Shown: positions 11,776-39,200 of the stretch, piece after piece
How positions within the stretch are numbered: the first letter of the stretch is position 1
Layout: each line of letters begins with the position of its first letter
From: Terriglobia bacterium
Lineage (GTDB): Bacteria > Acidobacteriota > Terriglobia > Bryobacterales > Bryobacteraceae
Direction of reading: 5' to 3'
Assembly (NCBI GenBank): GCA_020073145.1
Contig: JAIQFS010000014.1
Coordinates: forward strand, 1 to 64,000
DNA: 64,000 bases
Translations under genes and position numbers: made by a program
Notes under the pieces: model-generated
What the model saw: the letters and a program-made list of their open reading frames with translations, nothing else
Told to the model about the DNA's origin: nothing
Databases searched by the model: none

Positions 11776-11877
11776 GGATCTCGACCTTATGATATCTCCT
11801 AGCGGGATTTTGTTGTGGACTCGAACTGTATAGGGTTGGCCCTCCATGCTGAAGTTTTCGAGGGGTTCCTCCGATAG

Positions 11878-19162: not shown

Positions 19163-20524
19163 CTAGGATGTAGCGGCCGCACTTCCCTTGCGGCGTTGGG
19201 CTAGATCGTCCGCGATCGACCGGGTGTTCTCGCGAGTGAGCGGATACAACAAGAGGCAAGCCGCGGTGGCCAGGAAAAAGACGCCGGCGTAAACGCTCGC
19301 GGTGAGAACGATGCCTTGCTGCGTCTCTACCGTTTGGACGGCAGCCCCGGATTCCAGGCCGTAGGCGGCCAGCAGCCATCCGGCGATGGCGCCGCCGAGC
19401 GCCAGACCCGCCCACAACGCAAAGACGATGCCGGAAGTCACAGTGCCGGTAGCGCGGCGCCTCGTCTTCCATTCGCCGTAATCGGCAACGTCGCCCATCA
19501 TCGCCCACAAGATCGGGCCCGAGAGCCCGAACGAGAATTGGCGCAGAACTTCTACCGCGATGATGACAGAAGTAGAGTGTGGCGGGATCACGTAGAGCGC
19601 CAACGTGAAGATACCCGTCAAGGCCATACTGGCGATGAAGAGCTGCCGCTTGCCGATGCGAACCGACACGGCGGTGGAGAAGGCCACACCCACCAGCAGC
19701 GAAGCGAGACCGAAGCCGTTGAACCAAGAGAATAGGGTGGCATCGCCCGCGACAAACCGAAAGTACGGCAGCATGACATTGCCGCGCACGAGAATCGCCG
19801 TGAAGTAGAACAAGGTCACCAGAAACAGCACGACCCAGGGCCGGCTGCGGAAGAGATCCGACAGGTCCTGGCCGAGCGAGGTTTTCTGCAGGGGATCGGG
19901 CTGGATGCGCTCTTTGGTCACAAAGAAGGTGATGAAGAAGAAGACGATGCTGAGCAGCGACAAAAAGCCCATGGTCAACTGGTAGCCGCGCGCATCATTG
20001 CCGCGCCCGAGGAACGCCACCATGGGAACGGCGAGGCTCTGCACGATGAACCCCGCGCTGTTCGCGGCGATCTGGCGGTACGACGAGATGCTGGTGCGTT
20101 CGTCCGGGTCCTGGGTCATGACCGCCGTCAGGGAAGCGTATGGGACGTTGTTGACGGTGTAAATGACGCGCAGCAGGATGTAGGTGGTCCAGGCGTAGGC
20201 GATCTTGCCGCCCGCGCTGAGCTGGGGTGTGGTGAATGTCAGGATGCTGATGATCCCAAACGGCACGGCTGTCCACAACAACCACGGGCGGAACTTGCCC
20301 CACCGGCTGTTGGTCCGGTCCGCGATGATTCCCATCACCGGGTTGAAGCACGCAACGCCCAAGCCGACGACGAGGAAGAGAGTTCCGGCCTGGGCCGCGC
20401 TCAGACCGAAGGTACGGGTATAGTAGTCCAGCTGCAGGGCCAGCATGGCTTGAAAGACGAAATTCGCGGCCATGTCACCCAAGGCGTAGCCGGTCTTTTC
20501 ACCAACCGAAAGTTTCTGGATCAT
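19163..20524 (-). CDS. GPH-family (MelB/XynP-like) sugar:cation symporter
   Basis: 453 aa, about 12 transmembrane helices. The N-terminus '[16 protein letters not shown]' and the loop '[20 protein letters not shown]' are the signatures of the glycoside-pentoside-hexuronide:cation symporter family; this loop is the conserved cytosolic 2-3 loop. The central '[25 protein letters not shown]' region (shortened here) also matches the family. Given neighbours GH10, GH67 and GH3, the cargo is most likely xylo-oligosaccharide, xylose or an (aldo)uronate. It starts 24 bp after the cytosolic GH3 gene and ends 8 bp before the xylanase gene. It would be the inner-membrane step after the TonB receptor. Confidence 0.9.
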
Positions 20525-25350: not shown

Positions 25351-25359
25351 TTCTTCCTC

Positions 25360-26133
25360 CTACGAATTCACTCCGGAGGCCAGGTAGCCTCCGTCCACGG
25401 CAATACACTGGCCGGTCAGGAAGCTGGCGGCGTCGGAGGCCAGCAGCACGGCGACCCCCACCAACTCTTCCGGACTTCCGAAGCGCCGCATCGGGGTGCG
25501 CATCAAAATCTCTTGCCCGCGCGGCGTATCGAGCACAAACTCGCTGTTCAATTCAGAGGGAAAGACGCCGGGGGCGATGGCGTTGACGGAAATACCGTCG
25601 CTCGCCCATTCGCAGGCCAGGCTTCGAGTGAGAGAGAGCAGGCCGGCCTTGGCGGCGCAATACGCGGCCACCTGGTGAAAGGCCAGAAACGATCCCAGCG
25701 AGGCCAGGTTGATGATGCGCCCCCGCCCGCTCTCCTTCAAGGGCGTGTAAAACGACTGGCACGCGCGCAACACGCCACTCAAATTGGTGTCGATCAGGCA
25801 GGTCCAGAGCTCTTCCTGCATGGTGGCCGTGGGTTCCTTGAAGGTGTAGCCGGCGGCATTGACCAGAATGTCGACGCGCCCGAATTGCAGCAGAACCGCT
25901 TGCCGCAGAGCATCGATCGACTTGCGGTCGCGGACGTCCGAGGGCTGGCGGATGGTGCGCCCGCCGGCGGCTTCGACATCCCGGCAGGCCTCTTCGAGGT
26001 GCTCTTCGCGGCGGCCCGTGGGAATCACGTGGGCGCCGTGTTCGGCGAGGCCCACGGCGAGCGCCCGGCCCAGGCCGGAAGTGGCGCCGATCACTACGGC
26101 CACGCGATCAGTCAGGTCCAGGCGGTTCGGCAT
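25360..26133 (-). CDS. Short-chain dehydrogenase/reductase, sugar-acid type
   Basis: 257 aa, classical SDR. The nucleotide-binding motif is 'GATSGLGRALA' near residue 17; catalytic residues include Ser in 'NLASLGSF' and the 'YCAAK' Tyr/Lys pair; 'NAAG' is present at about residue 89. It resembles gluconate 5-dehydrogenase and 2-keto-3-deoxygluconate dehydrogenase (KduD)-type enzymes. It lies between the sugar-acid dehydratase gene (6 bp away) and the GH67 gene (9 bp away) in the glucuronoxylan operon. A role in reducing or oxidising glucuronate-derived keto acids, for example a fructuronate reductase step, is inference from context. Confidence 0.85.
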   Translation of the reverse strand: MPNRLDLTDRVAVVIGATSGLGRALAVGLAEHGAHVIPTGRREEHLEEACRDVEAAGGRTIRQPSDVRDRKSIDALRQAVLLQFGRVDILVNAAGYTFKEPTATMQEELWTCLIDTNLSGVLRACQSFYTPLKESGRGRIINLASLGSFLAFHQVAAYCAAKAGLLSLTRSLACEWASDGISVNAIAPGVFPSELNSEFVLDTPRGQEILMRTPMRRFGSPEELVGVAVLLASDAASFLTGQCIAVDGGYLASGVNS

Positions 26134-26139
26134 GTCCGT

Positions 26140-27384
26140 TCAGTAGGGGATGCGCACCGGCCGGGAATCGTTGGGGTCGGCCCAGCGGTCGTTGGGGACA
26201 ATCGGCGCCCAGCCCGGGCGGGCCGGGTCCTGATCATACGGGTAGTTTCCCAGCCGCTGGTAGAGTTCATGGTATTGCCGCAGCTTGTCGCGGTCCAACC
26301 GGACACCGAGGCCGGGCCCGCGCGGCACCGCGATCGCACCATCCTGATAACGCATCAGTCCCCCTTCGATGATATCGTCCGTCAGGTGATGATAGTGGGC
26401 GTCGGCCGCGAAAGAGAGGTTGGGAAGGACCGCGCCGAGGTGCAGCATAGTGGCCAACTGAATTCCTAATTCGCCGGAAGAGTGTACGGCGACGCCCAGT
26501 TGAAAGGTCTCGCAAACTCCCGCCGCTTTCACGCAGGCGCGGACACCTCCCCAGAACGTGGTGTCGAGCAGGATTACATCCACGGCCGTATCGAGCGCGT
26601 TGGCGGCCAGTTGCTCGAAGTTCACGACCACGGTGTTGGTGGCGAGCGGAATCCGCACCATCTGCCGGGTGCGGCGCATCCCATTCAGGCCGAAGACCGG
26701 ATCTTCGAGATAGTCGTTGCGCAACCCTTCGATGGCCTGGCCGAAGCGAATGGCCTGTTCGGTGGACCAGACGCCGTTGGGGTCGAAGCGCAGCGAATCG
26801 CCGGGGAGCGCGGCGGCCAGCGCGCGATAGGCTTCCAATTCATAGTCGGGCGGAAAGACGCCGCCCTTGAGCTTGTGCGTGGTGAAGCCGCAGCGGCGCT
26901 TGAGATCGCAGGCATAAGCGGCCAACTGCTCGATCGCGCGAACTTCGCCGGCGCCGCTTTGGGCATCGGGATAGCGGAAAAAGCAGTAGGAGGCGAACGG
27001 CACGCGGTCCCGCAGCCGGCCGCCCAAGATGTCACAGACCGGAACATCCCAGGCCTGGCCGAGGATATCGAGACAGGCAAACTCGAGAGCCGCCAGCACT
27101 TGCGTGCGGTTGTTATAAAGCGAAGCGGTGGGGTTGGCGATGAGGAAGCGCATCTCCTCCAGCCGCGCCGGATCGTGCCCCACCAGATACGCCTTGAGGG
27201 AGCGGAACACGGCTTCGGCCGATTCGCCTCCGCCGCCCATCTCGCCCAACCCGATCAGGCCGTTATCCGTCTCGACTTCGACGATGGTACGGACAAACCG
27301 ACCCCAGTGGCAGCCATTGGCGTGGCGCAATGGGGCCTCCAGCGGAACGGTGACCGTAGTGGCCCGGATGTCACGGATCTGCAT
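26140..27384 (-). CDS. Enolase-superfamily sugar-acid dehydratase (glucarate dehydratase-like)
   Basis: 414 aa. Mandelate-racemase/muconate-lactonising fold: N-terminal capping domain, then a barrel with the Lys-x-Lys motif in '[14 protein letters not shown]', metal ligands Asp in 'RFDPNGVWS' and Glu in 'YLEDPVFG', and the catalytic His in '[13 protein letters not shown]'. This set is the one used by glucarate dehydratases (GudD), giving 5-keto-4-deoxyglucarate. The start at 27384 fits the family N-terminus ('[19 protein letters not shown]'); longer open frame upstream is non-homologous. It is the first gene of the seven-gene operon, so it would act on the uronic acid freed from xylan, but an oxidised (glucarate) or isomerised form could be the real substrate. 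Cytosolic. Confidence 0.85.
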
Positions 27385-27559
27385 AGCAGTTAATCCAATC
27401 CTACAACAATATGTGCAGAATCGAACACCAAAGGGCCTGGGGCCGCACCGGCCTCGGCCGCGGAACGGGTCGGGTTCCAAATTGGGACCCGGGGCCTGGA
27501 CCCCCTGCCAGCTGAGTGTAAACCCACCAGAACGCGTCCGCTTCCAAAAACCGTATTCC

Positions 27560-27571
27560 AGTTTCTAAACT
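27560..27571. promoter_or_regulatory. Candidate operator palindrome
   Basis: AGTTTCTAAACT: two perfect 5-bp arms around a 2-bp centre, 30 bp upstream of the putative -35 box of the TonB receptor. It lies between the divergent xylan operon and receptor, where a ROK, IclR or response-regulator site would be expected. Short palindromes occur by chance, so this is weak. Confidence 0.25.
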
Positions 27572-27600
27572 CCGTAATCCGGACATCGGACAAAAGGGCC

Positions 27601-27632
27601 TTGACTTTTAGAATCAGTGAGGTATATATAAT
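27601..27632 (+). promoter_or_regulatory. Putative sigma70-type promoter of the TonB receptor gene
   Basis: TTGACT at 27601-27606 and an AT-rich block (TATATATAAT, 27623-27632) that offers a -10 box at 16, 18 or 20 bp spacing. The receptor ATG is 55 bp further on with an 'aggaaga' ribosome site. This is the strongest consensus-like promoter seen in the window. Confidence 0.45.
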
Positions 27633-27686
27633 TCTAGACCACAACTAAATGGACTCTCAATTGCTGAGGCAAGGGCAGGAAGAACT

Positions 27687-30600
27687 ATGAGAAGAAGGAC
27701 TTCGTCGTCTCTGATCTGGTGCGCCGCTGCGCTCCTGGTGTTCGCCGGGGCTGGCAGTGTTGCCCACGCTCAAGTACTCTACGGATCGCTTACCGGAAAC
27801 GTGATCGATCCCGCCGACGCCGCGATACCCGGCGCGAAAGTGCAAGCGGTGAATGTAAACACCGGGGTTACGCGGCAGGACGAGACGGACGCCCGGGGGG
27901 CCTTCCTGTTCAACAACCTCCAGTTGGGAACCTACAAGGTCACCGTCGAGGCCAAGGGCTTCCAGACCACCGTCGTTTCGGACGTGGTAGTGAACGCCAA
28001 CGAGGTGCGGCGCGTCGACTTCAACGTGGCGATCTCGCGGGCCACGCAGACCGTGGAGGTATCTGCGAACGCGGCGGTGCTGCAAACCGATAAGTCGGAC
28101 GTGCATCAGGTGATCACGGCGCAGCAGGTGACCGAACTGCCGTACTCCGGCGGCGAAGGCAAGAACTTCCAAAGCCTCCTCTACCTGGTGCCGGGCGCGC
28201 TTTTCCCCGCGACCAAGGAACCGAATTCGGAAGCCGGCAATCCGATGCGCGGACAAGCGTTACAAGTGAACGGCGTCTCTTCCTCGGCCAACAGTTATAA
28301 GATGGACGGCGCACCGATCATTTATCCGTGGCTTCCCGTGGATGTGGCGTATGTCCCGTCGACGGAAGCGATCGAAACCGTCAATATCAGCACCAACTCG
28401 TTCGATGCCGAGCAGGGCACGGCCGGTGGCGCGGCGACCAACGTCACCATCAAATCGGGCACGAACGAGGTGCACGGGTCGGCCTTCGAGCGGAACCAGA
28501 ATAACGACCTGGTGGCAGTGAACAACTACTTCAGCCACCCTGGCAGAGCGGCCAAGAACATTTTCAACAATTACGGCTTCGCGTTCGGCGGGCCGGTGTT
28601 CATCCCGAAAGTCATCAACGGCAAGAACAAGCTGTTCTTCTTTCTGGACTATCAGAACATCGTGCGCCGCCAGTATGCTTCGACTCCCAACATGACGCTG
28701 CCTACCACGGCCATGCGGGGCGGAGACTTCAACGGCACCGGCATCACGATCTATGACCCGCTCACGGGCAACCCGGATGGCACCGGCCGGCAGCCGTTCG
28801 CCAACAACGTCATTCCCACGAACCGGATCGACCCCGCGTCGAAGACGCTGGCTGGCTTATTGCCCGCGAACCTCACCCGGCCGAATCAGTACACCAGCAA
28901 CTACGACGCGTACGGCGGCACTCAATACAACCGCTACGCTTGGGATTATAAGGTGAACTACGATCCCACCGAGAAGGCCGCGATCTGGGGGCGGTACAGC
29001 TTTTCGCCCATATCGATTCCCGGCACCTTCGCGCTGGGAGCGGCGGAAGGCGATGCCCTGGGCGGCGCCCAGCCCGGCGTAGCCGGCGGGCGTGTGCAGA
29101 CGACCGCCGCCGGTTTCACTTACACCATCTCGCCCACCGTGCTGCTGGACGGCAACGTCGGCTATACGCGCCAGAACATCGGCGCCAATGGCGACTCGCA
29201 ACAAGGCAACTATGGGTTGACGACGCTGGGCATTCCGGGGACCAATGGAGTTGGCCCCGATTACGCAGGCATCCCGGGCTTCCAAGTCACGGGTATCGCC
29301 AACATTGGCAATACCAGCACCGGCAGCCCATTCCTGTTCCGCGACAACCAATACACCACCAGCTTGAACTTAGGCAAGGTCTCCGGGTCGCACAACCTGC
29401 GCTTCGGTTTCGAATACGACAAAGCGGCTCTGAATCACTTCCAACCGCAGGGAGGCACCTTCGGCACGGCGCGCGGCACCTTCGGGTTCAATGGTTCGAT
29501 GACCGTGCTGTGTAACGCGGTCAGCGCCGCGGGTGTCTGCAATTCCAGCCAGACTCCTAACGCGAACGGCAATCCGGCTAATTCCTGGGCCGATTTCCTG
29601 CTGGGGTACCCCAACCGAATGGGAAAGGTCACCCAGTTCCAAGATCCCAACGCGCTGCGCTTCTCCACCTGGGGCCTGTACGCACGCGATCAATGGCAGG
29701 TGACCCGTAATCTGACCGTCACCTACGGTTTACGTTGGGAATACTACCCGATTTTCTCGCACAACTGGTACGGCGCTGTGCGGTATGACCCGGCCACCCA
29801 CAATATTCTGATTGGCGGCGAAGGCAGCACTCCCTGGGACACGGGGGCTAGCGCCTCGAAGACCGGCTTTGCGCCGCGTTTGGGGATTGCGTATCGGCTC
29901 GGTTCCAAGACGGTCGTCCGCTCCGGCTATGGCATTACCGTCGACCCGGAAAACATGCGGAATCAGCGCAACTCGTTCCCCTCAGTGGTCAACCAGGACT
30001 ATCCAGCGCTCACCGATCAATTCGTGTCGATCGCGGGTTTCTGCACGCAATGCACGCTCCGAAACGGCCTGCCTACCGGCGCCGGCCTCACGCCGAACAT
30101 TTCGCAAGGCGTGATCAGCCCGGCCCCCGCCGGGACGACCGCGGCGACGCTACTCTCCACCAACTACCTGCCCACCATCAGCACGGGCACGTTCCCGGCG
30201 GACATGAACCGGGGATACATCCAAAGCTGGAACCTGTTCGTCCAGCGGGAGATCTCTTCGAGCATGACTGCCGAGGCGGGGTACGTCGGCACGCATGCGG
30301 TGCATCAGACCTTCGGCGTCAACATCAACGGGTCCGCAGCCGGCACCAATACCACGACCGCACGCCCACTCGCTCCCTATCTCACCGGGGATCTAAACAG
30401 TTATGAGCCGTTCGGCAACATGACGTACAACGCGCTGCAAGCACGCGTGACCAAACACATCGGCTCGTCGGTGATCGGCGCGTCGTACACGTTCTCGAGA
30501 GCCATCGACAACTTCAACGGCACCGGTAGCGGAACCCAAGGCGACAACGGGGATGGCAGCCTATTTCGGGCCTTTCCCTCGTCTTACGCTTTAGACAAAC

Positions 30601-31205
30601 AGTTAGCGGGCTTCGACCGAACCCATACCTTCGTGCTCTATCACGTCTACAACTTCCCGTTCGGGAAGGGACATAAGTTCCTCAACCACGGCGTGATCGC
30701 GCAGATCGTGGGCGGATTCCAGATCGGCGGTACGCTCACGCGATACAGCGGACTGCCGTTTACGGTCGGATCCAGCGTGGCCACCAATGGCGGCGGACAG
30801 TCGCAATCGGCGACCCAGATCAACCCGGTTGTTCAGATCATGAGCGGCCACGACGCCAATTCGCCTTACTTCGACGGAACGGCTTTCGCCAACCCGGCGA
30901 CGGGGACGTTGGGAACCACAGGCAGAAACATTCTTCGTGGTCCCGGGCTCTTCAATATGGATGAGAACGTTTCCCGCACCTTCAGCTTCAAGGACGGCAG
31001 AATCAAATTCCAGATCGTCGGCGAGGCGTTCAACTTGACCAACACGGCGTCGTTCAATACTCCCGGCAGCAGCGGAACCACTACGTTCGCAAATCCCACG
31101 CTGAATGCTGCGGGCCAGATCACGAGCTACGGCAATTTCAGCGTGATCACCAGCACGCTGTCCACTCAGCGTCAGTTGCAAGTGAGCGCGTATCTGAGGT
31201 TCTAG
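27687..31205 (+). CDS. Oar-like TonB-dependent outer-membrane receptor
   Basis: 1172 aa. Signal peptide at 1-29 ('LLVFAGAGSVAHAQ'). Residues about 30-115 are a carboxypeptidase-regulatory-like beta domain ('GSLTGNVIDPADAAIPGAKV'), followed by a plug domain (about 125-260, 'LPYSGGEGKNFQSLLYLVPG') and a large beta-barrel ending in an aromatic residue ('SAYLRF'), as outer-membrane proteins do. This is the receptor class greatly expanded in Acidobacteriota, analogous in role to SusC. Its position divergent to the glucuronoxylan operon suggests it imports xylan fragments. No SusD-like lipoprotein gene is next to it. An 'aggaaga' ribosome site precedes the ATG and a strong terminator follows the stop. 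Confidence 0.92.
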   Translation: MRRRTSSSLIWCAAALLVFAGAGSVAHAQVLYGSLTGNVIDPADAAIPGAKVQAVNVNTGVTRQDETDARGAFLFNNLQLGTYKVTVEAKGFQTTVVSDVVVNANEVRRVDFNVAISRATQTVEVSANAAVLQTDKSDVHQVITAQQVTELPYSGGEGKNFQSLLYLVPGALFPATKEPNSEAGNPMRGQALQVNGVSSSANSYKMDGAPIIYPWLPVDVAYVPSTEAIETVNISTNSFDAEQGTAGGAATNVTIKSGTNEVHGSAFERNQNNDLVAVNNYFSHPGRAAKNIFNNYGFAFGGPVFIPKVINGKNKLFFFLDYQNIVRRQYASTPNMTLPTTAMRGGDFNGTGITIYDPLTGNPDGTGRQPFANNVIPTNRIDPASKTLAGLLPANLTRPNQYTSNYDAYGGTQYNRYAWDYKVNYDPTEKAAIWGRYSFSPISIPGTFALGAAEGDALGGAQPGVAGGRVQTTAAGFTYTISPTVLLDGNVGYTRQNIGANGDSQQGNYGLTTLGIPGTNGVGPDYAGIPGFQVTGIANIGNTSTGSPFLFRDNQYTTSLNLGKVSGSHNLRFGFEYDKAALNHFQPQGGTFGTARGTFGFNGSMTVLCNAVSAAGVCNSSQTPNANGNPANSWADFLLGYPNRMGKVTQFQDPNALRFSTWGLYARDQWQVTRNLTVTYGLRWEYYPIFSHNWYGAVRYDPATHNILIGGEGSTPWDTGASASKTGFAPRLGIAYRLGSKTVVRSGYGITVDPENMRNQRNSFPSVVNQDYPALTDQFVSIAGFCTQCTLRNGLPTGAGLTPNISQGVISPAPAGTTAATLLSTNYLPTISTGTFPADMNRGYIQSWNLFVQREISSSMTAEAGYVGTHAVHQTFGVNINGSAAGTNTTTARPLAPYLTGDLNSYEPFGNMTYNALQARVTKHIGSSVIGASYTFSRAIDNFNGTGSGTQGDNGDGSLFRAFPSSYALDKQLAGFDRTHTFVLYHVYNFPFGKGHKFLNHGVIAQIVGGFQIGGTLTRYSGLPFTVGSSVATNGGGQSQSATQINPVVQIMSGHDANSPYFDGTAFANPATGTLGTTGRNILRGPGLFNMDENVSRTFSFKDGRIKFQIVGEAFNLTNTASFNTPGSSGTTTFANPTLNAAGQITSYGNFSVITSTLSTQRQLQVSAYLRF

Positions 31206-31227
31206 CCACAATCCAGGCAACACCCTC

Positions 31228-31270
31228 GCGCACCCAAGCCCCCCACGGCTTGGGTGCGCTTTCCTTTTAT
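31228..31270 (+). terminator. Rho-independent terminator after the TonB receptor
   Basis: A perfect 13-bp stem (31228-31240 with 31247-31259, GCGCACCCAAGCC and its complement) around a 6-nt loop, followed directly by TTTCCTTTT on the plus strand. It lies 22 bp after the receptor stop and reaches just into the end of the convergent RACo-type gene. Confidence 0.88.
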
Positions 31271-33096
31271 GCCCGCCCCAGGGCCAGGGCGTCCGTGAAG
31301 ACGCTGTTGAACTGGGGGTGACCGGAGAGCTCAACGGGTTCCACGTGCTGAGGCATTTGGCGGGCGGCTTCCCGTTCGGCGCGCGAGAGCAAAGCGATCT
31401 TCGCGCCTTCCCCAGCGGCGTTTCCCACCGCGGTGATGCGCTCCAGCGGCACGTCGGGCACCAGCCCGATGGCCCGCGCGCTAGCGGGGTTCAGGTACGA
31501 TCCAAACGAGCCGGCTAACAGCACTTCGTCGAGATCCTCGGTCCGGACGCCCAGGCGTTTCATCAACACTTGCGTGCCCGAGGCGATGGCGGCCTTGGCC
31601 AGTTGCAGCGCCCGCACATCCGCCTGGGTCAGGATGATGCCGTCTTCGGGAGCGCTCAATAAGAATCCCGGAATGCCGTCCTGCAAGATCAAACGGTCGG
31701 CCAAGGCCGCGGGCAATCTTCCAGGCACCGCGTCCGGCCTCACAAAGCGCCCCGACGGCTCCAGCAGACCGCACCGCAACAGCTCGGCCACCGCATCCAC
31801 CAGCCCCGAACCGCAGATTCCCACCGGGCGCGGCAGCCCACCGACGATGCGCAGCCAGACGTTGCCGTCGATCGCGAGGCCTTCGATCGCGCCCGAGGCG
31901 GCCCGCATGCCGCACCGAATCTGCGCACCCTCGAAGGCTGGGCCAGCGGGGGCGGCCGTGGCCAGATAGCGGTCGTCCCGGCCCAGCACAATTTCCGTGT
32001 TGGTTCCCACGTCGAGATACAAGCGCAGCTTCCCGTCGGCCCGCCGCACCCCGTCGGTTGCCAACAACCCCGCCACGACGTCTGCGCCAACGTACGCGCC
32101 CACCAGCGGCAGCGTGCTCAGGCGGGCTTCGGGGTGCAGCCGCAGCCCGGCGTCCGCCGCGGGCAGGGTGAGGGCCTGCTGAAACGCGGGAACGAACGGG
32201 CTGACCCCGATCGGCGCTGGATCGACACCCAGCAGCAGGTGCAGCATGGTGGCGTTACCGACGGCCACCGCTTCATAAATGTTCTCGCGGGGCACGCCGC
32301 ACTTCGCCCCGGCGGCTTCCACCAGCTGGTTGACCGTCCCGGCGATGCGGCTCTGCAAGGCTGCCAGGCCGCCCTCGTGGAGAGTGGCGTAGCCGATCCG
32401 CGCGATCACATCCGCGCCGTACGTTGCCTGGGCGTTCAGGAGGGATTCGACTGCCTCGATGACGCCGGTTTTCAGATTGACGAGCGTGCCGACCACCGTG
32501 GTGGTGCCGAGGTCCAGAGCCAGGCCATAGTTCCGGTCCGTGGTGTCGCCCGCTTCCACGGCGATCCATTCGTCGCCGCAAATCACGGCCGTGATGTCGA
32601 AGGCGCCGTGCCGCAGCACCGCGGGGAGCGCGCGGCTGACATTGGGGACGGCCCGGGGCTCATAGCCGGCGGCGCGCAGCGCATCGAGCACGCGCGTGAG
32701 GTAGGAGCGCGGGTCTGCCAGAGACGGTTGGGCCAGTTCCAGATGCACCTTGCAGACGTTGGGATCGAGGGCGACGGATCGTCCGGACCCAGGCAGCGCC
32801 ACTGGAGGCTCGGAGCTCCCGCTCGGCGCTTCGACTACGCAATCGGCATGGACGGTGGCGCAGCACGCCAGCCGCCAGCCGTCTTCCAATTGAGCCGCGT
32901 CGAGAAACCGGCGGTCTGTTTCCGCAGCGGGACCAGCGCCCTCCCGCATCCGGACCTTGCACTGGCCGCACGTGCCGCGCCCCCCACAAATGGTTTCGAT
33001 CGGGATGCCCGCCCAGTTGGCCGCGCTGAGGATGCTGGCGCCGTCAGGCGTGGACGCGGTCCGGTGTTGCGGAAGAAATGTGATTCGATGCGTCAT
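31267..33096 (-). CDS. RACo-type reductive activator of corrinoid proteins (2Fe-2S + ASKHA ATPase, DUF4445)
   Basis: 609 aa. Residues 1-90 form a plant-type 2Fe-2S domain (C37, C43, C46 and C78 or C79: 'CGGRGTCGQC' then 'LACCATV'). From about residue 165 is the DUF4445 ASKHA-fold ATPase domain with 'GLALDLGTTTVVGTLVNLKT', 'VGNATMLHLLLGVDP', 'YLDVGTNTEIVLG' and 'VLLAGSFGSYLNPASA'. Proteins of this build use ATP to drive electrons onto an oxidised Co(II) corrinoid, restoring Co(I) in methyl transfer systems. The start is set by the ferredoxin domain and lies 53 bp inside the preceding pterin-binding methyltransferase gene. Last gene of the methyl-transfer set, convergent with the TonB receptor. 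Confidence 0.88.
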   Translation of the reverse strand: MTHRITFLPQHRTASTPDGASILSAANWAGIPIETICGGRGTCGQCKVRMREGAGPAAETDRRFLDAAQLEDGWRLACCATVHADCVVEAPSGSSEPPVALPGSGRSVALDPNVCKVHLELAQPSLADPRSYLTRVLDALRAAGYEPRAVPNVSRALPAVLRHGAFDITAVICGDEWIAVEAGDTTDRNYGLALDLGTTTVVGTLVNLKTGVIEAVESLLNAQATYGADVIARIGYATLHEGGLAALQSRIAGTVNQLVEAAGAKCGVPRENIYEAVAVGNATMLHLLLGVDPAPIGVSPFVPAFQQALTLPAADAGLRLHPEARLSTLPLVGAYVGADVVAGLLATDGVRRADGKLRLYLDVGTNTEIVLGRDDRYLATAAPAGPAFEGAQIRCGMRAASGAIEGLAIDGNVWLRIVGGLPRPVGICGSGLVDAVAELLRCGLLEPSGRFVRPDAVPGRLPAALADRLILQDGIPGFLLSAPEDGIILTQADVRALQLAKAAIASGTQVLMKRLGVRTEDLDEVLLAGSFGSYLNPASARAIGLVPDVPLERITAVGNAAGEGAKIALLSRAEREAARQMPQHVEPVELSGHPQFNSVFTDALALGRA

Positions 33097-33949
33097 CCAT
33101 CGCCTTCCGTTTCTCCCGATAACGCGCCAGCCAGTGAGCGGCGTTTTCGTCGCGAGCGCACAATAAGTCGCCGGCCAGCACCGCCTCCCGAACGGCCGGT
33201 TGCGTGATATCGGCAATGGCGGAGGTCAGACCGCACGACATGGCCATGGGCAGAAAGGCGGCGGTCAGCGCCGCCCGGTCCGGCAAACCGAATGAGACGT
33301 TGCTGGCTCCGCAGCACAGGTTGACGCCCAGTTCGCCGCGGATGCGCCGCATGGTTTCGAACGTGACCAGGGCAGACCGGGGATCGGTGGCGACGGCCAG
33401 ACACAGCGGATCGAGGATCACGTCGCTGGCCGGAACGCCGTGATCGCGGGCGCGCTCGACAATCTTGCGCGCCACCGCCAGACGCGCACCGGGGTCATTC
33501 GAGATGCCGGCATCGTCGCTGACCAGGCCGATCACGGCGCAACGGTACTTGCGGATCAGCGGAAGGATGAGCTCCAGGCGGGCCTCTTCACCCGTCACGG
33601 AATTCACCAGTGCCTTGCCGGAATAGATGGCCAGAGCCGCCTCCAAGGCGTCCGCCCGCGAGGAGTCGAGGCATAACGGCACATCTTCCACTTCTTGAAT
33701 CGCAAGGACGGCTTGGCGGAGCATGACGGTTTCATCTCCCAGAGGAGAGCCGGCGTTGACGTCCAGCACGCGGGCGCCGGCCGCGATCTGTGTTTGCGCA
33801 TCCCTGCGCACGGCAGTGAAATCGCCAGCCGCCATTTGCGCGCCGAGGCTCTTGCGGCCGGTGGGGTTGATGCGTTCGCCGATCAGGACGAAGGGCTGGT
33901 CCGCTCCGATGAGGACGGTCCGGTTCCGGGAGTGCAATTCGGTATGCAT
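33044..33949 (-). CDS. Pterin-binding methyltransferase (methyl-H4folate:corrinoid type, DHPS fold)
   Basis: 301 aa single-domain protein. Motifs of the AcsE/MetH-type methyltetrahydrofolate-binding barrel: 'LIGERINPTGRKSLG', 'VLDVNAGSPLGDE', 'PLCLDSSRADALEAAL', 'NSVTGEE' and 'CCGASNVSFGLPDRAAL'. True dihydropteroate synthases (FolP) lack the 'ASNVSFGLP' signature, so a folate synthesis role is unlikely. In O-demethylase systems this kind of enzyme (methyltransferase II) moves the methyl from a corrinoid to tetrahydrofolate. The start at 33949 gives the family N-terminus; upstream in-frame sequence has no homology. It follows the UroD-family gene by 13 bp and overlaps the RACo-type gene by 53 bp. 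Confidence 0.87.
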   Translation of the reverse strand: MHTELHSRNRTVLIGADQPFVLIGERINPTGRKSLGAQMAAGDFTAVRRDAQTQIAAGARVLDVNAGSPLGDETVMLRQAVLAIQEVEDVPLCLDSSRADALEAALAIYSGKALVNSVTGEEARLELILPLIRKYRCAVIGLVSDDAGISNDPGARLAVARKIVERARDHGVPASDVILDPLCLAVATDPRSALVTFETMRRIRGELGVNLCCGASNVSFGLPDRAALTAAFLPMAMSCGLTSAIADITQPAVREAVLAGDLLCARDENAAHWLARYREKRKAMDDASNHISSATPDRVHA

Positions 33950-33962
33950 GACAGACCGCTCG

Positions 33963-35021
33963 CTAGCGGTGTTCCACCAGCGATTCATTGAACTCGCGGG
34001 CCGCCGCCACCAGCGCCTCAATGTTCGCCTTGGGCATTCCCGGGCTGACCCCGCCGCCCACCGAGAGGATCAGGTTGCGGCCTTCGGTTTTGCGCAGCAC
34101 TTCGAGCGCCGCCGCCTTGACCTGATCGGGCGTGCCGCGCACCCCCAGGTCCAGGGGAGCGACGTTGCCCATGAGACACATGCGGCCGCCGGTCCGCCGG
34201 TGCGCCTCGCCGATGTCCAGCTTGTGGGTGAAGTTCAATACATCGAAACCGGTGTCGGGGAGGTCTTCCAGGCATTGTTTGACCGAGGCATCGTTGTGGT
34301 AGACCTTGACCCAATCGGAGGGAAACGCATCGCAGATCTGTTTGAGGTACGGATGCGCGAATTTCCGGTAGAACTCGTGCGAGATGAAACCGACGATGTC
34401 GTCCAGAATGAAAATGCCTTCGACGCTGGGGCCGATCACGTCGGCCTGTGCTTTCAGCCACTGGATGGTCGCCTCGGTGGTGTAGGCGAGCAAGCGGTGG
34501 ACGCCGGCGGGGTCTTCCGCCATATTGAGCATGAGCCGGCTGAGGTCATGCAGGAACGCAGCGGTACACAGGGGGCCGCGCGCGGTGGCGACCGGAATGG
34601 TGTAACCTGCGTCAAAGATCCGCTGTTTCTGCATGCGGTAGCGCTGCAACGCCAGCGACATGAAGCCATCGGCGTAGGGATCGACCGGGGCCAACCGGTC
34701 CACGTCATCCAGATGAAAGAGCATGGCGCGCATGCTGGGCGTCTGGTCGGCGGCGAAGGAAATCCGCGCGCCCATGGCGGAAGGCTCGATGGCCATGCCG
34801 TATTCCATCCACCACGAAGGGAAGAAGATGACATCCGGAAACTCGCGCAGCACCCGCGCGTTAGCCTGAAACCAGACTTCGGGGTCAAGGAAAAAATCGA
34901 AATGGTTGATGCCCAGATAGCCCGGAATCCAGGGGCTATCGACAATCAGGGCCGTCGGCACCGCGGCCACCGCCTGGCGTTTGGCTGCCTTCTTGAAGAT
35001 TTGCCACTGTTCCGGGCGCAT
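33963..35021 (-). CDS. Uroporphyrinogen decarboxylase-family (MtaA/CmuA-type) methyltransferase
   Basis: 352 aa single URO-D-fold domain. It shows 'FFPSWWMEYGMAIEPSAMG', 'ATARGPLCTAAFLHDLSRL', 'FILDDIVGFISHEFYRKF', 'VKVYHNDASV' and 'LMGNVAPLDLGVRG', typical of the corrinoid-dependent branch of the family and not of heme-pathway HemE. No corrinoid-binding DxHxxG motif is present, so it is not a CmuA-like fusion. In methylotrophic and O-demethylating systems such enzymes transfer a methyl group from substrate to a corrinoid protein. Its position directly before the methyl-H4folate-type enzyme and RACo supports that role. The start (35021) was chosen over one 21 codons upstream because homology starts at 'RPEQWQIFKKAAKR'. 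Confidence 0.85.
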   Translation of the reverse strand: MRPEQWQIFKKAAKRQAVAAVPTALIVDSPWIPGYLGINHFDFFLDPEVWFQANARVLREFPDVIFFPSWWMEYGMAIEPSAMGARISFAADQTPSMRAMLFHLDDVDRLAPVDPYADGFMSLALQRYRMQKQRIFDAGYTIPVATARGPLCTAAFLHDLSRLMLNMAEDPAGVHRLLAYTTEATIQWLKAQADVIGPSVEGIFILDDIVGFISHEFYRKFAHPYLKQICDAFPSDWVKVYHNDASVKQCLEDLPDTGFDVLNFTHKLDIGEAHRRTGGRMCLMGNVAPLDLGVRGTPDQVKAAALEVLRKTEGRNLILSVGGGVSPGMPKANIEALVAAAREFNESLVEHR

Positions 35022-35151
35022 AGGGACACTTCTCGAGGGGGGCTCGTGCCGCTGCTGGGCCGGCCCGACGCATTTGTTCGACAATCAAATTATAGACTCG
35101 ACAGAAGGCGCCGTCAAGAGAAAACAGATATTCAGGACTGTTTTTCCAGGA

Positions 35152-36330
35152 CTAGGCCGGCACTTCGCGCACGGGGCCGAAGTGCTTTTGCAGGACCAGG
35201 GCCACGGTGCCACGGAGGCGGGCCAGGCCGTCTTCGTGGGCGGGGATGAGGCGCGGGGGACAGCCTCCGGGCAGCACCTGGGCCTGGACTTCGGCTTCGA
35301 TGACCGGACCGAATCGGTGCCAGGAGCGAGTCAGGTCGCCGATCATGATAATGCGCTCGGGAGCCAGGCCGGCGACAATCATGCGCATGCCACGGCCCAG
35401 GTAGTGTGCCATCTTCTCGAGCGCCTTGGCGGCGCGCGCGTTGCCCTGGTCGGCCAGGCTGAGCAAGTCGGGAAAGCTCAGGCCTTGCTCGTGAGCGGCG
35501 GACTCGTGGTAGTAGCGGAGGGCGGCGCGATTGGAGGCGAACACCTCCCAACAGCCGCGGCTTCCGCAGCCGCATTTCGGCCCGTCCGGTTCCAGCGGCA
35601 CGTGGCCGAACTCTCCGGCCATCCCCTTCAGGCCGCGGGCAAGCTGGCCGTTGATCAGGACCCCGGCGCCGATGCCTTCCGAAACCGTGACCACCACCAG
35701 GTTGCGGCAGGTTTCCATGCGATCGAACCACACCGCCGCCAAGACGCAGGCGTTGGCGGCATTTTCGAGCTCGACTTCGAGACCCGTGGCCTTGGCCAGC
35801 GGACCGCTGATATCGAAATCGGCCCACTTGAGGTTGGGGGCGAAGACCAGTTGTCCGGAGCTGATGCGGCCGGGCAGGCTGATTCCGATCCCCTCGATTT
35901 TCTTTCCCCGGCAGGAACGGGTGAGCGCCTGAATGCGTTGGATCAGAGCCTCCACTCCGGCCTTGGGATCGCGCGGCGTGGCCATCACTTCCTGCGACGC
36001 GAACTTGCCGTTGACGTCGGCCAGCGCGACCGTGGTTTGTGTGGGGCGCAGGTCCACGCCAATGATGACGCGGTCCTCATTGAGGCGCAAGAACGTGGGA
36101 CGGCGGCCGCGCGGCAGGCGGCCGGTAGGTCCTTCCAGGACCCAATGCTGCTCGACGAGGGCCTCGACAATCAGAGAAATGGTGCTGCGCTGCAGGCCGG
36201 AAACGCGCGCCAGGTCGGCGCGGGAAATGGGCTGGCGGGTGCGAATGAGGTTGAGGACGATGCGCCGGTTGATATCGCGAACGACTTCGCTCGACGCTCC
36301 TTGAATCCGCTCCAAATCGATGACGGACAT
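35152..36330 (-). CDS. ROK-family transcriptional repressor (XylR/NagC-like)
   Basis: 392 aa. N-terminal winged helix (about 15-75, 'VLNLIRTRQPISRADLARVS') followed by a ROK sugar-kinase-like domain with 'GVDLRPTQTTVALADVNG', 'GIGISLPGR', 'AANACVLAAVWFD' and the zinc motif 'GHVPLEP...KCGCGSRGCWEVFAS'. The build is that of XylR, Mlc and NagC, which release DNA on binding a sugar or sugar phosphate. It lies between the uronate-isomerase-like gene (123 bp upstream) and the methyltransferase gene (130 bp downstream), all on the minus strand. It is a good candidate regulator for the xylan or uronate genes (inference). Confidence 0.9.
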   Translation of the reverse strand: MSVIDLERIQGASSEVVRDINRRIVLNLIRTRQPISRADLARVSGLQRSTISLIVEALVEQHWVLEGPTGRLPRGRRPTFLRLNEDRVIIGVDLRPTQTTVALADVNGKFASQEVMATPRDPKAGVEALIQRIQALTRSCRGKKIEGIGISLPGRISSGQLVFAPNLKWADFDISGPLAKATGLEVELENAANACVLAAVWFDRMETCRNLVVVTVSEGIGAGVLINGQLARGLKGMAGEFGHVPLEPDGPKCGCGSRGCWEVFASNRAALRYYHESAAHEQGLSFPDLLSLADQGNARAAKALEKMAHYLGRGMRMIVAGLAPERIIMIGDLTRSWHRFGPVIEAEVQAQVLPGGCPPRLIPAHEDGLARLRGTVALVLQKHFGPVREVPA

Positions 36331-36453
36331 TTCGTCCGGTACCTGGACTTCCGAAAGCCTAGTGTAGCAAACGTGTTCGCGGCGGCCGATGCACGATGCC
36401 AGCCGCTCGCGAGGCGCTCTAGCCGGCCCGCAAAGGGCGCCGGCGCCGATCCC

Positions 36454-37728
36454 TTACCCTTCCGTGAACCGCTCGAAATTGGCGCGGAACAGGCGGGTCA
36501 CGTCGCGGCAGACGTCGTCACGGGTAACCGCGCGGCCGTCCTGAGCCAGAAGGCGGTACGACTGAGCCAGCAGCGGCCCAATGGTGCGCCGGGTATTGCG
36601 CCATTTATAAATCACTTGTTCCAAAATCCGGGCATCGGAGTGCTGCGGGATGAAACTGGCGCCGAGCATCTCCAGCCGCTCGCGGGTGATTTCTTCGACT
36701 ATCGACGGATTATTCAAAAACCACCAGCAGCCGAACGGCATCAGGTTGGCGAACTTGCGCGCATAGACGCAGAGTTCGTGCTGATTCTCACGGCTGAGGA
36801 CGCTGACCAGAAACCGGTTTTCCGGGAACTCGCGGCACAACGTTTCCAGCGCCAGCAGGTCGGCCTTGCCCGCTGCGTCACCCGCCAGGCGCAAGGCGGG
36901 ATTGACCTGGCGGCGCACGCCGATCATCAGCGAAATCGGAACCTTCAAGTCGCGGCACGCCGGGAGGATGGCGCCTGCCAGCAGTTTCGTGCGGACATCG
37001 GCGGCCGGAAACCGGAAGGTATCGGGCAGAGAAACCGCCAGGTACACCGGCTTCATCCGGACCGCCCAGTCCGTCACAAAGCGCCGGACTTCCGCCAGGG
37101 TGGAGCCACCGGCGTCCGCTTCGACCGCATACCCTTTGGCGGCGAGACGTCCGCAGTGAGCGGACCAATCGTTCAAAATCCGGTCGAGCCGCAATGCTGC
37201 GTGAAAGCGCGGGTCCGGCTGGATGCCGCGGTTCCACCATTCCGTTTCGGTTTCATCCAGCGGGTCATTGGTCATGACCACGGCGCTGACCCCCGCCAGG
37301 TCCAACACGCGCGGGAGATACGCAGGCAGGCTCTGCGCCTGAAAGAATTCTCGGATGGGCGAGAGAGTGCGAGCGCGAGGGTCCAGCCCCAGCGCCGAGA
37401 GCACCGCCACCACGCCGCGCGCCGCCTCAGACACGGGCGTGTTCTCCACGAACAGAGTCTTCCAGATGAGGTCGGCTTGCCGCGTTTTGTCGAGGGCGAA
37501 GTACTGCTCCGGCGGGATGGGCGAAAAGCGGAACAGCTCCGCCTCCAGATAGTGGTACGTGAGCAGTTCGTCGATGCCCCAGAGCCCGAAGCCGCCAAAT
37601 TCCGGGGCAAACAGGTGGGTGTGAATGTCGATCACCGGCGTGGCGGCCAGGACTTCTTCCACCACGCGGCCCAACTCTTCGGCGGCGATCGGCCGGTCCA
37701 CGGGAGCCGCTACGGAACCCTCCATCAT
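36454..37728 (-). CDS. Uronate isomerase-like (UxaC-type) amidohydrolase-superfamily protein
   Basis: 424 aa. The metal-binding 'IDIHTHLFAPEFGGF' opens the barrel. 'LTYHYLEAELFRF' parallels the 'HYKWR.MR' stretch of UxaC, and the C-terminal 'CWWFLNNPSIVEEITRERLE' plus 'PQHSDARILEQVIYKWR' corresponds to the UxaC 'WWF...' and 'TDSRSF' regions. UxaC converts glucuronate or galacturonate to the ketouronate. This copy is divergent and may have another uronate or a methylated uronate as substrate. A GGAG site 6 nt before the ATG at 37728 fixes the start (a TTG one codon earlier is possible). It is the first gene of the run that continues with the ROK regulator and the corrinoid-type methyltransferases. 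Divergent from the IclR gene. Confidence 0.68.
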   Translation of the reverse strand: MMEGSVAAPVDRPIAAEELGRVVEEVLAATPVIDIHTHLFAPEFGGFGLWGIDELLTYHYLEAELFRFSPIPPEQYFALDKTRQADLIWKTLFVENTPVSEAARGVVAVLSALGLDPRARTLSPIREFFQAQSLPAYLPRVLDLAGVSAVVMTNDPLDETETEWWNRGIQPDPRFHAALRLDRILNDWSAHCGRLAAKGYAVEADAGGSTLAEVRRFVTDWAVRMKPVYLAVSLPDTFRFPAADVRTKLLAGAILPACRDLKVPISLMIGVRRQVNPALRLAGDAAGKADLLALETLCREFPENRFLVSVLSRENQHELCVYARKFANLMPFGCWWFLNNPSIVEEITRERLEMLGASFIPQHSDARILEQVIYKWRNTRRTIGPLLAQSYRLLAQDGRAVTRDDVCRDVTRLFRANFERFTEG

Positions 37729-37867
37729 CAATCGCTCCAGTATAGCTGGCGCCGGCGTTCAGCCAGGTTTAGTTCGACCCTACAACAAGATACCACGCGA
37801 CACCTTCCGGCGGCAGGGGAGCCCTGGAGTATACTGGCGCTTCGCGGCGGCGACGACCGCCCGTGTC

Positions 37868-38710
37868 ATGAAGGCTGCCACCAATTCGCTCGAACGCGCG
37901 CTGGCCATTCTGGAAATCCTGGAGGGAACTCCCGGCGGTCTGCGGAATGCGGAAATCAGCGCACGGATGCACATTCCGAAGAGCACCTGCTCCTACATCC
38001 TGGCCCGCCTGGAACAGAAAGGCTATCTCACGCGCGACAGCCACACGGGCCGCTACCGGATCGGTCTGACCACGGTGGCGCTGGCGCATGGCGCGCTGCG
38101 CGACATGGGGATTCGCTCGATTGCCGAGCCCGCACTCTATCGACTTGCGAGCGAGACCGGCCTGTCGGCCGGGATTGGTGTATTGGAACGAGGCCGGGTC
38201 TTGATCGTCGATCGTGTGGAGGGCGCCGAGTTCGTTCGCGACGCGGTGGAGATTGCGGCGGGCGCTCCGGACCCTTGGCCCGGCGTGGCGCGGAAGTACC
38301 GCATTCGGGCAGAGCGCGATATCGGACGCGAACTACCCGCGCACTCGACGGCATTGGGCAAGGTGCTGATGGCGCACCTGGCGCGGGAAGAAGCTCTGGC
38401 CCTGATCCCGGAGCGCGGGTTGGCCCGGCAGACGCGGAAGACCATCGTATCCAAAGCCCGCTTTATGGAAGAGCTGGCGCTGGTCCGGAAGCAGGGCTAT
38501 GCCACGGCAGACGAGGAGCACCACGCCGGAATCCGCTCCATCGCCGCCCCGATCTTCGGCGCTTCGTCAACCGTAACCGCCGCCGTCGCGCTGAATGGAG
38601 GCCTGGCGGAAGCGGCATGGCGGGAGCCGGCCGTGCTGGTGGAGCGGGTCAAGGCCGCCGGCCGGGAAATCTCCCGCCGGGCGCGCGTCCCGCGGCGTGC
38701 AATAGATTGA
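37868..38710 (+). CDS. IclR-family transcriptional regulator
   Basis: 280 aa. Winged helix at about 5-65 ('NSLERALAILEILEGTPGG', 'ISARMHIPKSTCSYILARLE') and a C-terminal IclR ligand domain ('HSTALGKVLMAHLAREEALA', 'VRKQGYATADEEHHAGIRSI', 'APIFGASSTVTAAVALNG'). The IclR family includes KdgR, which controls uronate and 2-keto-3-deoxygluconate genes. It is divergent from the uronate-isomerase-like gene, the usual layout for a regulator and its target. The ATG has no strong ribosome site; a TATACT box lies 32 bp upstream. Target and ligand are inference. Confidence 0.9.
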   Translation: MKAATNSLERALAILEILEGTPGGLRNAEISARMHIPKSTCSYILARLEQKGYLTRDSHTGRYRIGLTTVALAHGALRDMGIRSIAEPALYRLASETGLSAGIGVLERGRVLIVDRVEGAEFVRDAVEIAAGAPDPWPGVARKYRIRAERDIGRELPAHSTALGKVLMAHLAREEALALIPERGLARQTRKTIVSKARFMEELALVRKQGYATADEEHHAGIRSIAAPIFGASSTVTAAVALNGGLAEAAWREPAVLVERVKAAGREISRRARVPRRAID

Positions 38711-38768
38711 ACAGAGGATTGAAGCGCCCGCCGCTTTCCGTTACACTTCCAGACCGAGGAGTCGCTGA

Positions 38769-39200
38769 ATGACAAAACCATGGACTGCGGCGTGCCTGTT
38801 GGCCTCCTGGATGCTGGTGGCCATGCCGGCCGGGGCCCATCACTCGTTTGGAGCTGAGTACGACGCCAACAAACCCATCACGCTGACGGGCGTCGTCACG
38901 AAGGTCGAGTGGACCAACCCGCACATCCACTTTTATATGGACGTGAAGGGCAGCAACGGCGCAGTGGCCAACTGGAAGTTTGAAGGATTCCCGCCGAACG
39001 TCCTCTACCGGACGGGCTGGAAGCGCGACGTCACCATGAAGCCGGGGGACACGGTGACGGTGTTCGCCTGGCGCTCGCGGGACGGCACGAACTGGGCGCA
39101 CGCGCGGCAAGTCACGTTCAGCGACGGCAAGAAGCTGTTTTCCGGGCCTCCGTCCGGCACCGGCGATGGCGGCAATGTGCCGGCCGTCGCCGAGCCGTAA
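38769..39200 (+). CDS. Small exported DUF6152-type protein
   Basis: 143 aa. Signal peptide at 1-24 ending 'MPAGAHHSFGAEYD'. The mature start 'HHSFGAEYDANKPITLTGVV' followed by 'KVEWTNPHIHFYMDVK' is the DUF6152 pattern, a small beta-rich exported family common in Acidobacteriota and Proteobacteria. Function is unknown. A 'gaggag' ribosome site lies 7 nt before the ATG. The next gene, also exported, starts 23 bp later. Confidence 0.85.
   Translation: MTKPWTAACLLASWMLVAMPAGAHHSFGAEYDANKPITLTGVVTKVEWTNPHIHFYMDVKGSNGAVANWKFEGFPPNVLYRTGWKRDVTMKPGDTVTVFAWRSRDGTNWAHARQVTFSDGKKLFSGPPSGTGDGGNVPAVAEP

Follow-up and report, generated by a model that had tools for sequence, protein, structure and literature searches.

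A candidate corrinoid-dependent O-demethylase associated with glucuronoxylan genes in Acidobacteriota and other bacterial phyla

The window analysed here is a stretch of 64,000 nucleotides from a Terriglobia bacterium (Acidobacteriota; contig JAIQFS010000014.1, positions 1 to 64,000), in which genes for a UroD-superfamily methyltransferase (hereafter UroD), a methyltetrahydrofolate:corrinoid methyltransferase (MeTr) and a RACo-type corrinoid reductive activase are found in a glucuronoxylan locus. An earlier reading of the letters alone (the sequence-only reading) had suggested corrinoid-dependent O-demethylation of 4-O-methylglucuronate, and comparative evidence from related genomes strongly favours this reading, with the substrate assigned from gene context. 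It is very probable that the UroD system is a corrinoid O-demethylase, and we put the probability that its substrate is 4-O-methylglucuronate, or the first metabolite of this acid, at roughly 0.7; in a locus with GH67 and GH115 alpha-glucuronidases, the 4-O-methyl group of glucuronate is the obvious candidate ether. A wider proposal, which we favour with somewhat less confidence, is a multi-phylum methyl salvage system in which an O-type UroD, together with a dismantled methionine synthase, would strip the 4-O-methyl group from glucuronoxylan and deliver it to methionine or methyl-folate.

In the proposed route, GH67 and GH115 would free 4-O-methyl-D-glucuronate from glucuronoxylan and an MFS carrier would import it. 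UroD, as the first methyltransferase (MT1), would bind this acid, or the first metabolite formed from it, and move its ether-bound methyl group onto a small B12 protein whose corrinoid is in the Co(I) state. The 4-hydroxyl would thus be freed, as the uronate pathway requires, and RACo would use ATP to re-reduce inactive Co(II). In the window genome, MeTr would pass the methyl group to tetrahydrofolate, and the corrinoid carrier is probably a protein encoded on another contig (C60); in many relatives, a homocysteine S-methyltransferase would pass it on to methionine, aided by a stand-alone protein resembling the reactivation domain of MetH.

Glucuronic acid of hardwood xylan is largely 4-O-methylated, and how bacteria remove this methyl group is poorly described. 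If the proposed route is true, soil bacteria, presumably including some aerobes, would draw one-carbon units from hemicellulose, the methyl group would be kept as methyl-folate or methionine with xylan breakdown tied to B12 supply, and corrinoid O-demethylation would be extended from aromatics to sugars. We know of no earlier corrinoid demethylase that acts on a sugar ether. The MeGlcA and GlcA substituents of xylan have been described (PMC7071571). In the open-access literature searched, judged by titles and the openings of abstracts, no paper was found that connects corrinoids, cobalamin or O-demethylation with methylglucuronate or glucuronoxylan, and the only sugar-ether demethylation found was the P450 route for 6-O-methyl-D-galactose in marine bacteria (PMC10033563). 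This route likewise strips a methyl ether from a polysaccharide-derived sugar, but it is oxidative and gives formaldehyde, whereas the transfer proposed here would keep the carbon at the methyl level.

Operon, protein family and metal site

Profile and homology searches bore out both the five minus-strand genes that the sequence-only reading had recognized, which in transcription order encode a UxaC-like isomerase, a ROK regulator, UroD, MeTr and RACo, and the presence of GH67 and GH115 genes in the same window:

36454-37728, minus strand: uronate isomerase, Bh0493 type (424 aa; 463 bits to Bh0493 over residues 18-423 of the open reading frame, ORF)
35152-36330, minus strand: ROK-family regulator, probable control gene (PF00480, 203 bits)
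33963-35021, minus strand: UroD-superfamily methyltransferase, proposed MT1 (ether demethylase; 352 aa; PF01208, 158 bits)
33044-33949, minus strand: MeTr, methyltetrahydrofolate:corrinoid methyltransferase, proposed second methyltransferase (MT2; 301 aa; NF005719, PF00809)
31267-33096, minus strand: RACo-type corrinoid reductive activase (609 aa; Fer2, PF14574, PF17651, PF17650, PF00111)
22858-25350, minus strand: GH67 alpha-glucuronidase (PF07488, 464 bits; PF07477, PF03648)
8920-11847, minus strand: GH115 alpha-glucuronidase (PF15979, 523 bits; PF17829)

The UroD and MeTr genes are separated by 13 bp, and the MeTr and RACo genes overlap by 53 bp; the start of UroD was placed at the ATG at residue 22 of its longest ORF, which is the conserved start. 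MeTr scores 303 bits against NF005719 (cut-off, 259), and RACo has the complete architecture of 2Fe-2S, linker, middle and ASKHA C-terminal domains. The isomerase, for which no Pfam or NCBIfam match was found, was assigned by its homology to the solved uronate isomerase Bh0493.

UroD falls below the cut-offs of both mtaA_cmuA (TIGR01463; 98.5 bits against 235.4) and hemE (72 bits against 303) and is assigned to neither family. Its predicted model (pLDDT 93) has the UroD fold, with Z-scores of 31-36 to UroD and MtaA structures; the best structural match is 4ay7, a methylcobalamin:coenzyme M (CoM) methyltransferase (Z 35.7, 22% identity), and UroD structures score at most 34. Other MT1 structures, such as CdmB, are not among the structural matches listed, which excludes nothing.

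At the metal site, all 100 orthologues compared have, by alignment, His242-Asn-Asp244 and a Gly-Gly-Gly that replaces the third Cys, and the His-Cys-Cys zinc site of the MtaA/MtbA CoM methyltransferases is missing from the window UroD both in the alignment to 4ay7 and in the orthologue check. As a control, we used 21 loci centred on the other corrinoid protein type (20 from other genomes of the window's order and one from the window genome), in which the UroD-family proteins examined have His-x-Cys in 18 of 18 cases. UroD-superfamily S-methyltransferases have been described to carry a His-Cys-Cys metal site, and O-methyltransferases to have one or both Cys replaced by carboxylates or non-ligands (Kountz and Balskus, PMC10418091). 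A His-x-Asp site without the third Cys matches this published O-type pattern, which supports an O- rather than an S-methyltransferase. MtvB, OdmB, VdmB and MtoB are O-demethylases of the same superfamily, and some such enzymes function without zinc (PMC13222342). With MT1 proteins of this kind, the window UroD shares the UroD fold, the O-type metal site and the genetic partner set.

Association with alpha-glucuronidase genes

Within the window's order, a UroD orthologue (E up to 1e-30) is present in 46 of 257 genomes, including the window's own. The co-occurrence with alpha-glucuronidases that the sequence-only reading had put forward as a check is seen in this order: GH67 is found in 38/46 UroD genomes vs 45/211 others, GH115 in 27/46 vs 20/211, and either of the two in 42/46 vs 55/211 (Fisher p-values 8e-17 to 3e-12, kinship ignored). 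A second order (that of genome G269; 249 genomes sampled) has GH67 in all 14 UroD genomes, counted at a minimum of 55% identity, vs 83 of 235 others (p 1e-6, kinship again ignored); two distant UroD matches there (36-37% identity) lack GH67. Nine of these 14 UroD loci were fetched and none of them has GH67 or GH115 in the stretch; since GH67 is in 14/14 of the genomes, the second order shows co-occurrence without linkage.

Named genomes were also scanned by pattern, which confirmed 357 relatives; among the titles of the best 80 of these 357 are Acidobacteriota, Verrucomicrobiota, Ignavibacteriota, Bacteroidota, Planctomycetota and candidate division KSB1. A further phylum, Gemmatimonadota, is represented by a plasmid of Gemmatirosa kalamazoonensis; locus L191 of strain KBS708 of this species has the full kit described below. 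For the first 50 of 64 named-genome UroD loci, GH67 occurs in 36 of the genomes and GH115 in six of the other 14 (42/50), a sample that overlaps the others, as it includes nine of the 14 genomes from the second order and as at least one genome, G305, looks like one already counted, G224 (same GH67 contig coordinates).

Gene neighbourhoods were compared in 105 non-overlapping loci. Set A has one locus each from 40 of the 45 UroD genomes that the window's order contains besides the window genome; set B has the 64 named-genome loci without overlap with set A, plus locus L191. Within the fetched stretches, GH67 or GH115 lies near UroD in 30 of the 105 loci (set A, 21/40; set B, 9/65) vs none of the 21 control loci. 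Outside Acidobacteriota, GH115 or GH67 was found at six UroD loci (L136, L145, L147, L162, L164 and L176) from Verrucomicrobiota, Ignavibacteriota and Planctomycetota, and some of the six also carry GH10, GH43, UxuA or a glucuronoyl-esterase-like protein. A methyl donor other than the one envisaged by the sequence-only reading was not indicated, as close UroD homologues do not sit beside genes for another known methyl donor among the neighbours annotated. That reading had also proposed a demethylase feeding the uronate isomerase. The isomerase gene does stand near UroD in the window, and the protein does not differ notably from the Bh0493 type, but no match was found in the other fetched UroD loci, so that UxaC was rejected as a conserved UroD partner.

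Methyl carriers and acceptors

The window genome (G000), a 6.3-Mb assembly in 88 contigs with a listed completeness of 100%, gave eight B12-binding matches, one of which is a corrinoid protein of the kind that the sequence-only reading had sought elsewhere in the genome:

C60, 30691-31359: stand-alone methyltransferase-type corrinoid protein (about 223 aa; PF02310, 112 bits; PF02607, 76 bits; 214 bits to 1y80)

It consists of a B12-binding domain with a helical cap, as expected of a methyltransferase corrinoid protein. A second B12-binding protein (131 aa) adjoins a gene read by eye as a methylmalonyl-CoA mutase subunit, and the remaining six matches lie within long frames (471-1193 aa), which were assumed as a group, not one by one, to be MetH and radical-SAM enzymes. 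RACo is represented by a single PF14574 match (the window gene), MttB was not found in this genome, and the PF01208 matches comprise the window UroD, a HemE-strength protein on contig C71 (410 bits) and a weak one (31 bits), with no second MtaA-like UroD. Because there is one RACo, no MttB and no stronger PF01208 match outside the HemE-like protein, the window UroD is, judged from these profile searches, the only clear candidate methyl-donor enzyme for the C60 corrinoid protein and RACo among the families searched. On balance, we regard the C60 protein as the likely methyl carrier for UroD. By a hand count at E below 1e-40, 42/46 UroD genomes of the window's order vs 59/211 others contain a stand-alone corrinoid protein.

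On C60, a DUF1638 gene comes after the corrinoid gene, an Amidohydro_2 gene is divergent to the latter, and two RraA-like genes lie nearby (read by eye); the Amidohydro_2 and RraA-like genes recall protocatechuate 4,5-cleavage genes. A second corrinoid system was observed in genomes of the window's order (L097-L104, L107 and L108), comprising a corrinoid protein, mostly a homocysteine methyltransferase, DUF1638, one or two other UroD-family proteins with His-Cys-Cys or His-Cys-His sites, and RACo. Only two parts of this system, the corrinoid protein and DUF1638, are seen in the window genome, on C60 (locus L009). It may be speculated that RACo and MeTr of the window operon were derived from this system.

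The relatives present a different picture of the partner genes. A dedicated corrinoid gene lies near UroD in 56 of the 105 loci (set A, 13/40; set B, 43/65), and corrinoid gene, RACo and homocysteine S-methyltransferase occur together in 38 (7/40 and 31/65). Since many contigs are short, these counts are lower bounds. Across phyla, the dedicated corrinoid protein shares 73-90% identity with its L069 counterpart. These relatives carry each module of MetH as a protein of its own: a homocysteine protein (PF02574), a corrinoid protein, one with the reactivation fold and, in some cases, a pterin protein similar to MeTr. Some UroD loci add MetF-like and MeTr-like genes. Judging from gene content, the kit of the relatives would be in effect a dismantled methionine synthase with UroD, as an ether demethylase, providing a new methyl input. 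Recovery of the methyl group as methyltetrahydrofolate, as the sequence-only reading had it, fits the window genome but does not extend to the many relatives with a homocysteine S-methyltransferase, some of which have MetF and MeTr-like genes.

The reactivation fold was recognized in a protein family of about 410 aa (c19; e.g., L066:5775-6995) that often travels with the kit. No Pfam or NCBIfam match was found for it, none being better than E 0.05 in 22 members (Pfam). Residues 1-208 of its model (mean pLDDT 84.8, pTM 0.56) have the MetH reactivation fold (1j6r, Z 20.4, rmsd 2.1 over 194 residues), and a profile match to the same 1j6r chain was obtained at E 0.006. The extra C-terminal domain, rich in invariant Cys, has no clear structural match in this model; it is perhaps a metal-cluster site. 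Another conserved family (c16; L069:15588-15926 and 28 other loci), about 110 aa in length and with a K(L/I)C(D/E) motif close to the N-terminus, accompanies the kit genes and has no Pfam or NCBIfam match. At L126, UroD is divergent from RACo with a homocysteine methyltransferase gene nearby, and no corrinoid gene match was found in the 21-kb stretch.

A tree was built from 100 UroD orthologues, that is, the 105 loci minus those without an ORF of 320 aa. It has several long branches, and its midpoint root serves for drawing only. The tree has two sides: 27 of the 28 rows on the window's side lack a linked corrinoid gene, and 53 of the 72 rows on the other side have one. By this gene distribution, the window's side must use another corrinoid protein, and the predicted acceptor gene in the window is MeTr.

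The UroD system resembles the three-component corrinoid O-demethylases of acetogens (MtvABC, OdmABD and VdmB) and archaeal MtoABCD in combining a UroD-superfamily MT1, a small corrinoid protein, an MT2 and an activase (PMC13222342). Unlike in those systems, UroD is linked here to glucuronoxylan genes and not to aromatics, many members have a homocysteine methyltransferase and a split-MetH set, and the corrinoid protein of the window genome is unlinked. Superfamily and fold are shared with the MtaA/MtbA CoM methyltransferases and Mlp clusters (PMC10418091), but the window UroD has His-x-Asp and Gly in place of His-Cys-Cys and lies below the mtaA_cmuA cut-off. Compared with MetH, whose modules the relatives' kit contains as separate proteins, the methyl group is proposed to enter from an ether via UroD, RACo is added, and the reactivation-like protein has the extra Cys-rich domain. 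To our knowledge, the phyla found here to bear UroD are not known for acetogenesis.

Alternative explanations and further features of the window

Several observations weigh against O-demethylation of 4-O-methylglucuronate by this system. UroD is found in none of the four other genomes of the window's genus, and the stand-alone corrinoid protein was not found, by the search applied, in four of the 46 UroD genomes of the order (drafts, 62-94% complete). In the window genome itself, the gene for this protein is not linked to UroD, the protein is of a type that serves another system in relatives, and the neighbouring genes recall aromatic catabolism. GH67 is common without UroD (45/211 in the window's order and 83/235 in the second order), and such bacteria must keep the methyl group in place, dispose of it by another route or encounter it only in small amounts. 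Conversely, neither GH67 nor GH115 is found in 8/50 named and 4/46 window-order UroD genomes (in one of the latter, G221, part of a GH67 gene is visible where a contig ends), neither gene lies in the fetched stretch at 75/105 UroD loci, and neither is annotated near the Acidobacteriaceae operons looked at. Moreover, the enolase-superfamily gene that stands near GH67 in the window also adjoins GH67 in UroD-negative genomes, at 12 of 20 loci examined (chosen from the 45 UroD-negative GH67 genomes of the window's order).

Three alternatives were weighed. The system may be a corrinoid O-demethylase for a lignin-derived methoxy-aromatic of the vanillate or syringate type, located in xylan loci since lignin and xylan are degraded together. 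The UroD-superfamily O-demethylases described do act on methoxylated aromatics (PMC13222342), and the only free methyltransferase-type corrinoid protein of the window genome adjoins Amidohydro_2 and two RraA-like genes (by eye). We consider this unlikely, as the annotated neighbours at UroD loci are largely xylan and uronate genes, the markers on C60 (LigJ-like, RraA-like and HIBADH-like) match none of the UroD loci searched, and UroD presence tracks GH67 even when unlinked. Similarly doubtful is the idea that a later intermediate (4-O-methylglucarate or 4-O-methyl-fructuronate) or another methylated plant sugar is demethylated, and not free 4-O-methylglucuronate. A glucarate-dehydratase-like enolase and a KduD-like short-chain dehydrogenase (SDR) stand beside GH67, and at times UroD, as if the acid were processed first, but the enolase has no match at L136, L145, L147, L162, L164 and L176 and occurs also without UroD. 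The same enolase, glucarate-dehydratase-like and retained in the 12 of 20 UroD-negative GH67 loci, might instead expel the methoxyl as methanol by beta-elimination across C4-C5 of a methylated uronate or aldarate, in which, by our own reasoning, the C5 proton is alpha and the C4 methoxyl beta to the carboxylate; the UroD kit would then use methanol. This appears very improbable, considering that the known methanol MT1 (MtaB) belongs to another family and that the enolase is present in just 17/40 (set A) and 2/65 (set B) of the UroD loci. Direct action on 4-O-methylglucuronate or its first metabolite is the reading that we retain. Enolase and SDR as parts of the demethylase were weakened as candidates, because both occur in UroD-negative GH67 loci (12/20 and, for SDR at a minimum of 300 bits, 7/20).

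The remaining features of the window are as follows:

37868-38710, plus strand: IclR-family regulator, divergent to the uronate isomerase (PF01614, PF09339)
26140-27384, minus strand: enolase-superfamily (MR/MLE) acid-sugar dehydratase, glucarate-dehydratase-like (PF13378; TIGR03247, 156 bits, below cut-off)
25360-26133, minus strand: short-chain dehydrogenase, KduD/gluconate-5-dehydrogenase-like (PF13561; the NCBIfam rows shown are all below cut-offs)
20549-22861, minus strand: GH3 glycoside hydrolase (PF00933, PF01915)
19163-20524, minus strand: MFS_2 sugar transporter (PF13347, 307 bits)
7675-8913, minus strand: xylose-isomerase-like TIM barrel (PF01261)
6181-7665, minus strand: FGGY sugar kinase, perhaps xylulokinase (PF00370, PF02782)
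35089-35117, minus strand: promoter-like site TTGACG-17-TATAAT just ahead of UroD (11/12 sigma-70-like matches)
35071-35090, minus strand: imperfect palindrome overlapping the -10 box, possible ROK operator (single occurrence in the window)
31228-31259, no strand assigned: 13-pair hairpin between the convergent RACo and OMP (outer-membrane protein) genes, terminator-like on the plus strand

With GH67, GH115, two GH3 genes, the MFS carrier, the FGGY kinase and the xylose-isomerase-like protein, the window is by its predicted gene content a glucuronoxylan locus. The grouping of GH67, SDR and enolase (22858-27384) was found in UroD-positive and UroD-negative genomes, with the enolase 74-88% identical to that of the window; it possibly represents an undescribed glucuronate branch via glucarate.

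UroD, MeTr and RACo probably form one transcription unit, given the 13-bp gap, the overlap and the promoter-like site ahead of UroD, with UxaC and ROK in others; one sigma-70-like site was found in 31200-37900 vs 0.7 expected in shuffles. The window and loci L009, L065 and L069 gave no cobalamin riboswitch at gathering thresholds, and a search of 26000-38800 at E up to 1 gave one chance match only. A terminator behind RACo was considered and dropped, as the hairpin is terminator-like on the plus strand and no T-run was scored on the RACo side; at best, the hairpin would serve the OMP gene. The palindrome was found upstream of UroD in one of 47 stretches, which is the window itself (background, 10/2000), and its role as a putative ROK operator, local to the window, is only a suggestion. 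ROK homologues are present in 7/40 set A UroD loci, six of them at 70-82% identity and one at 31%.

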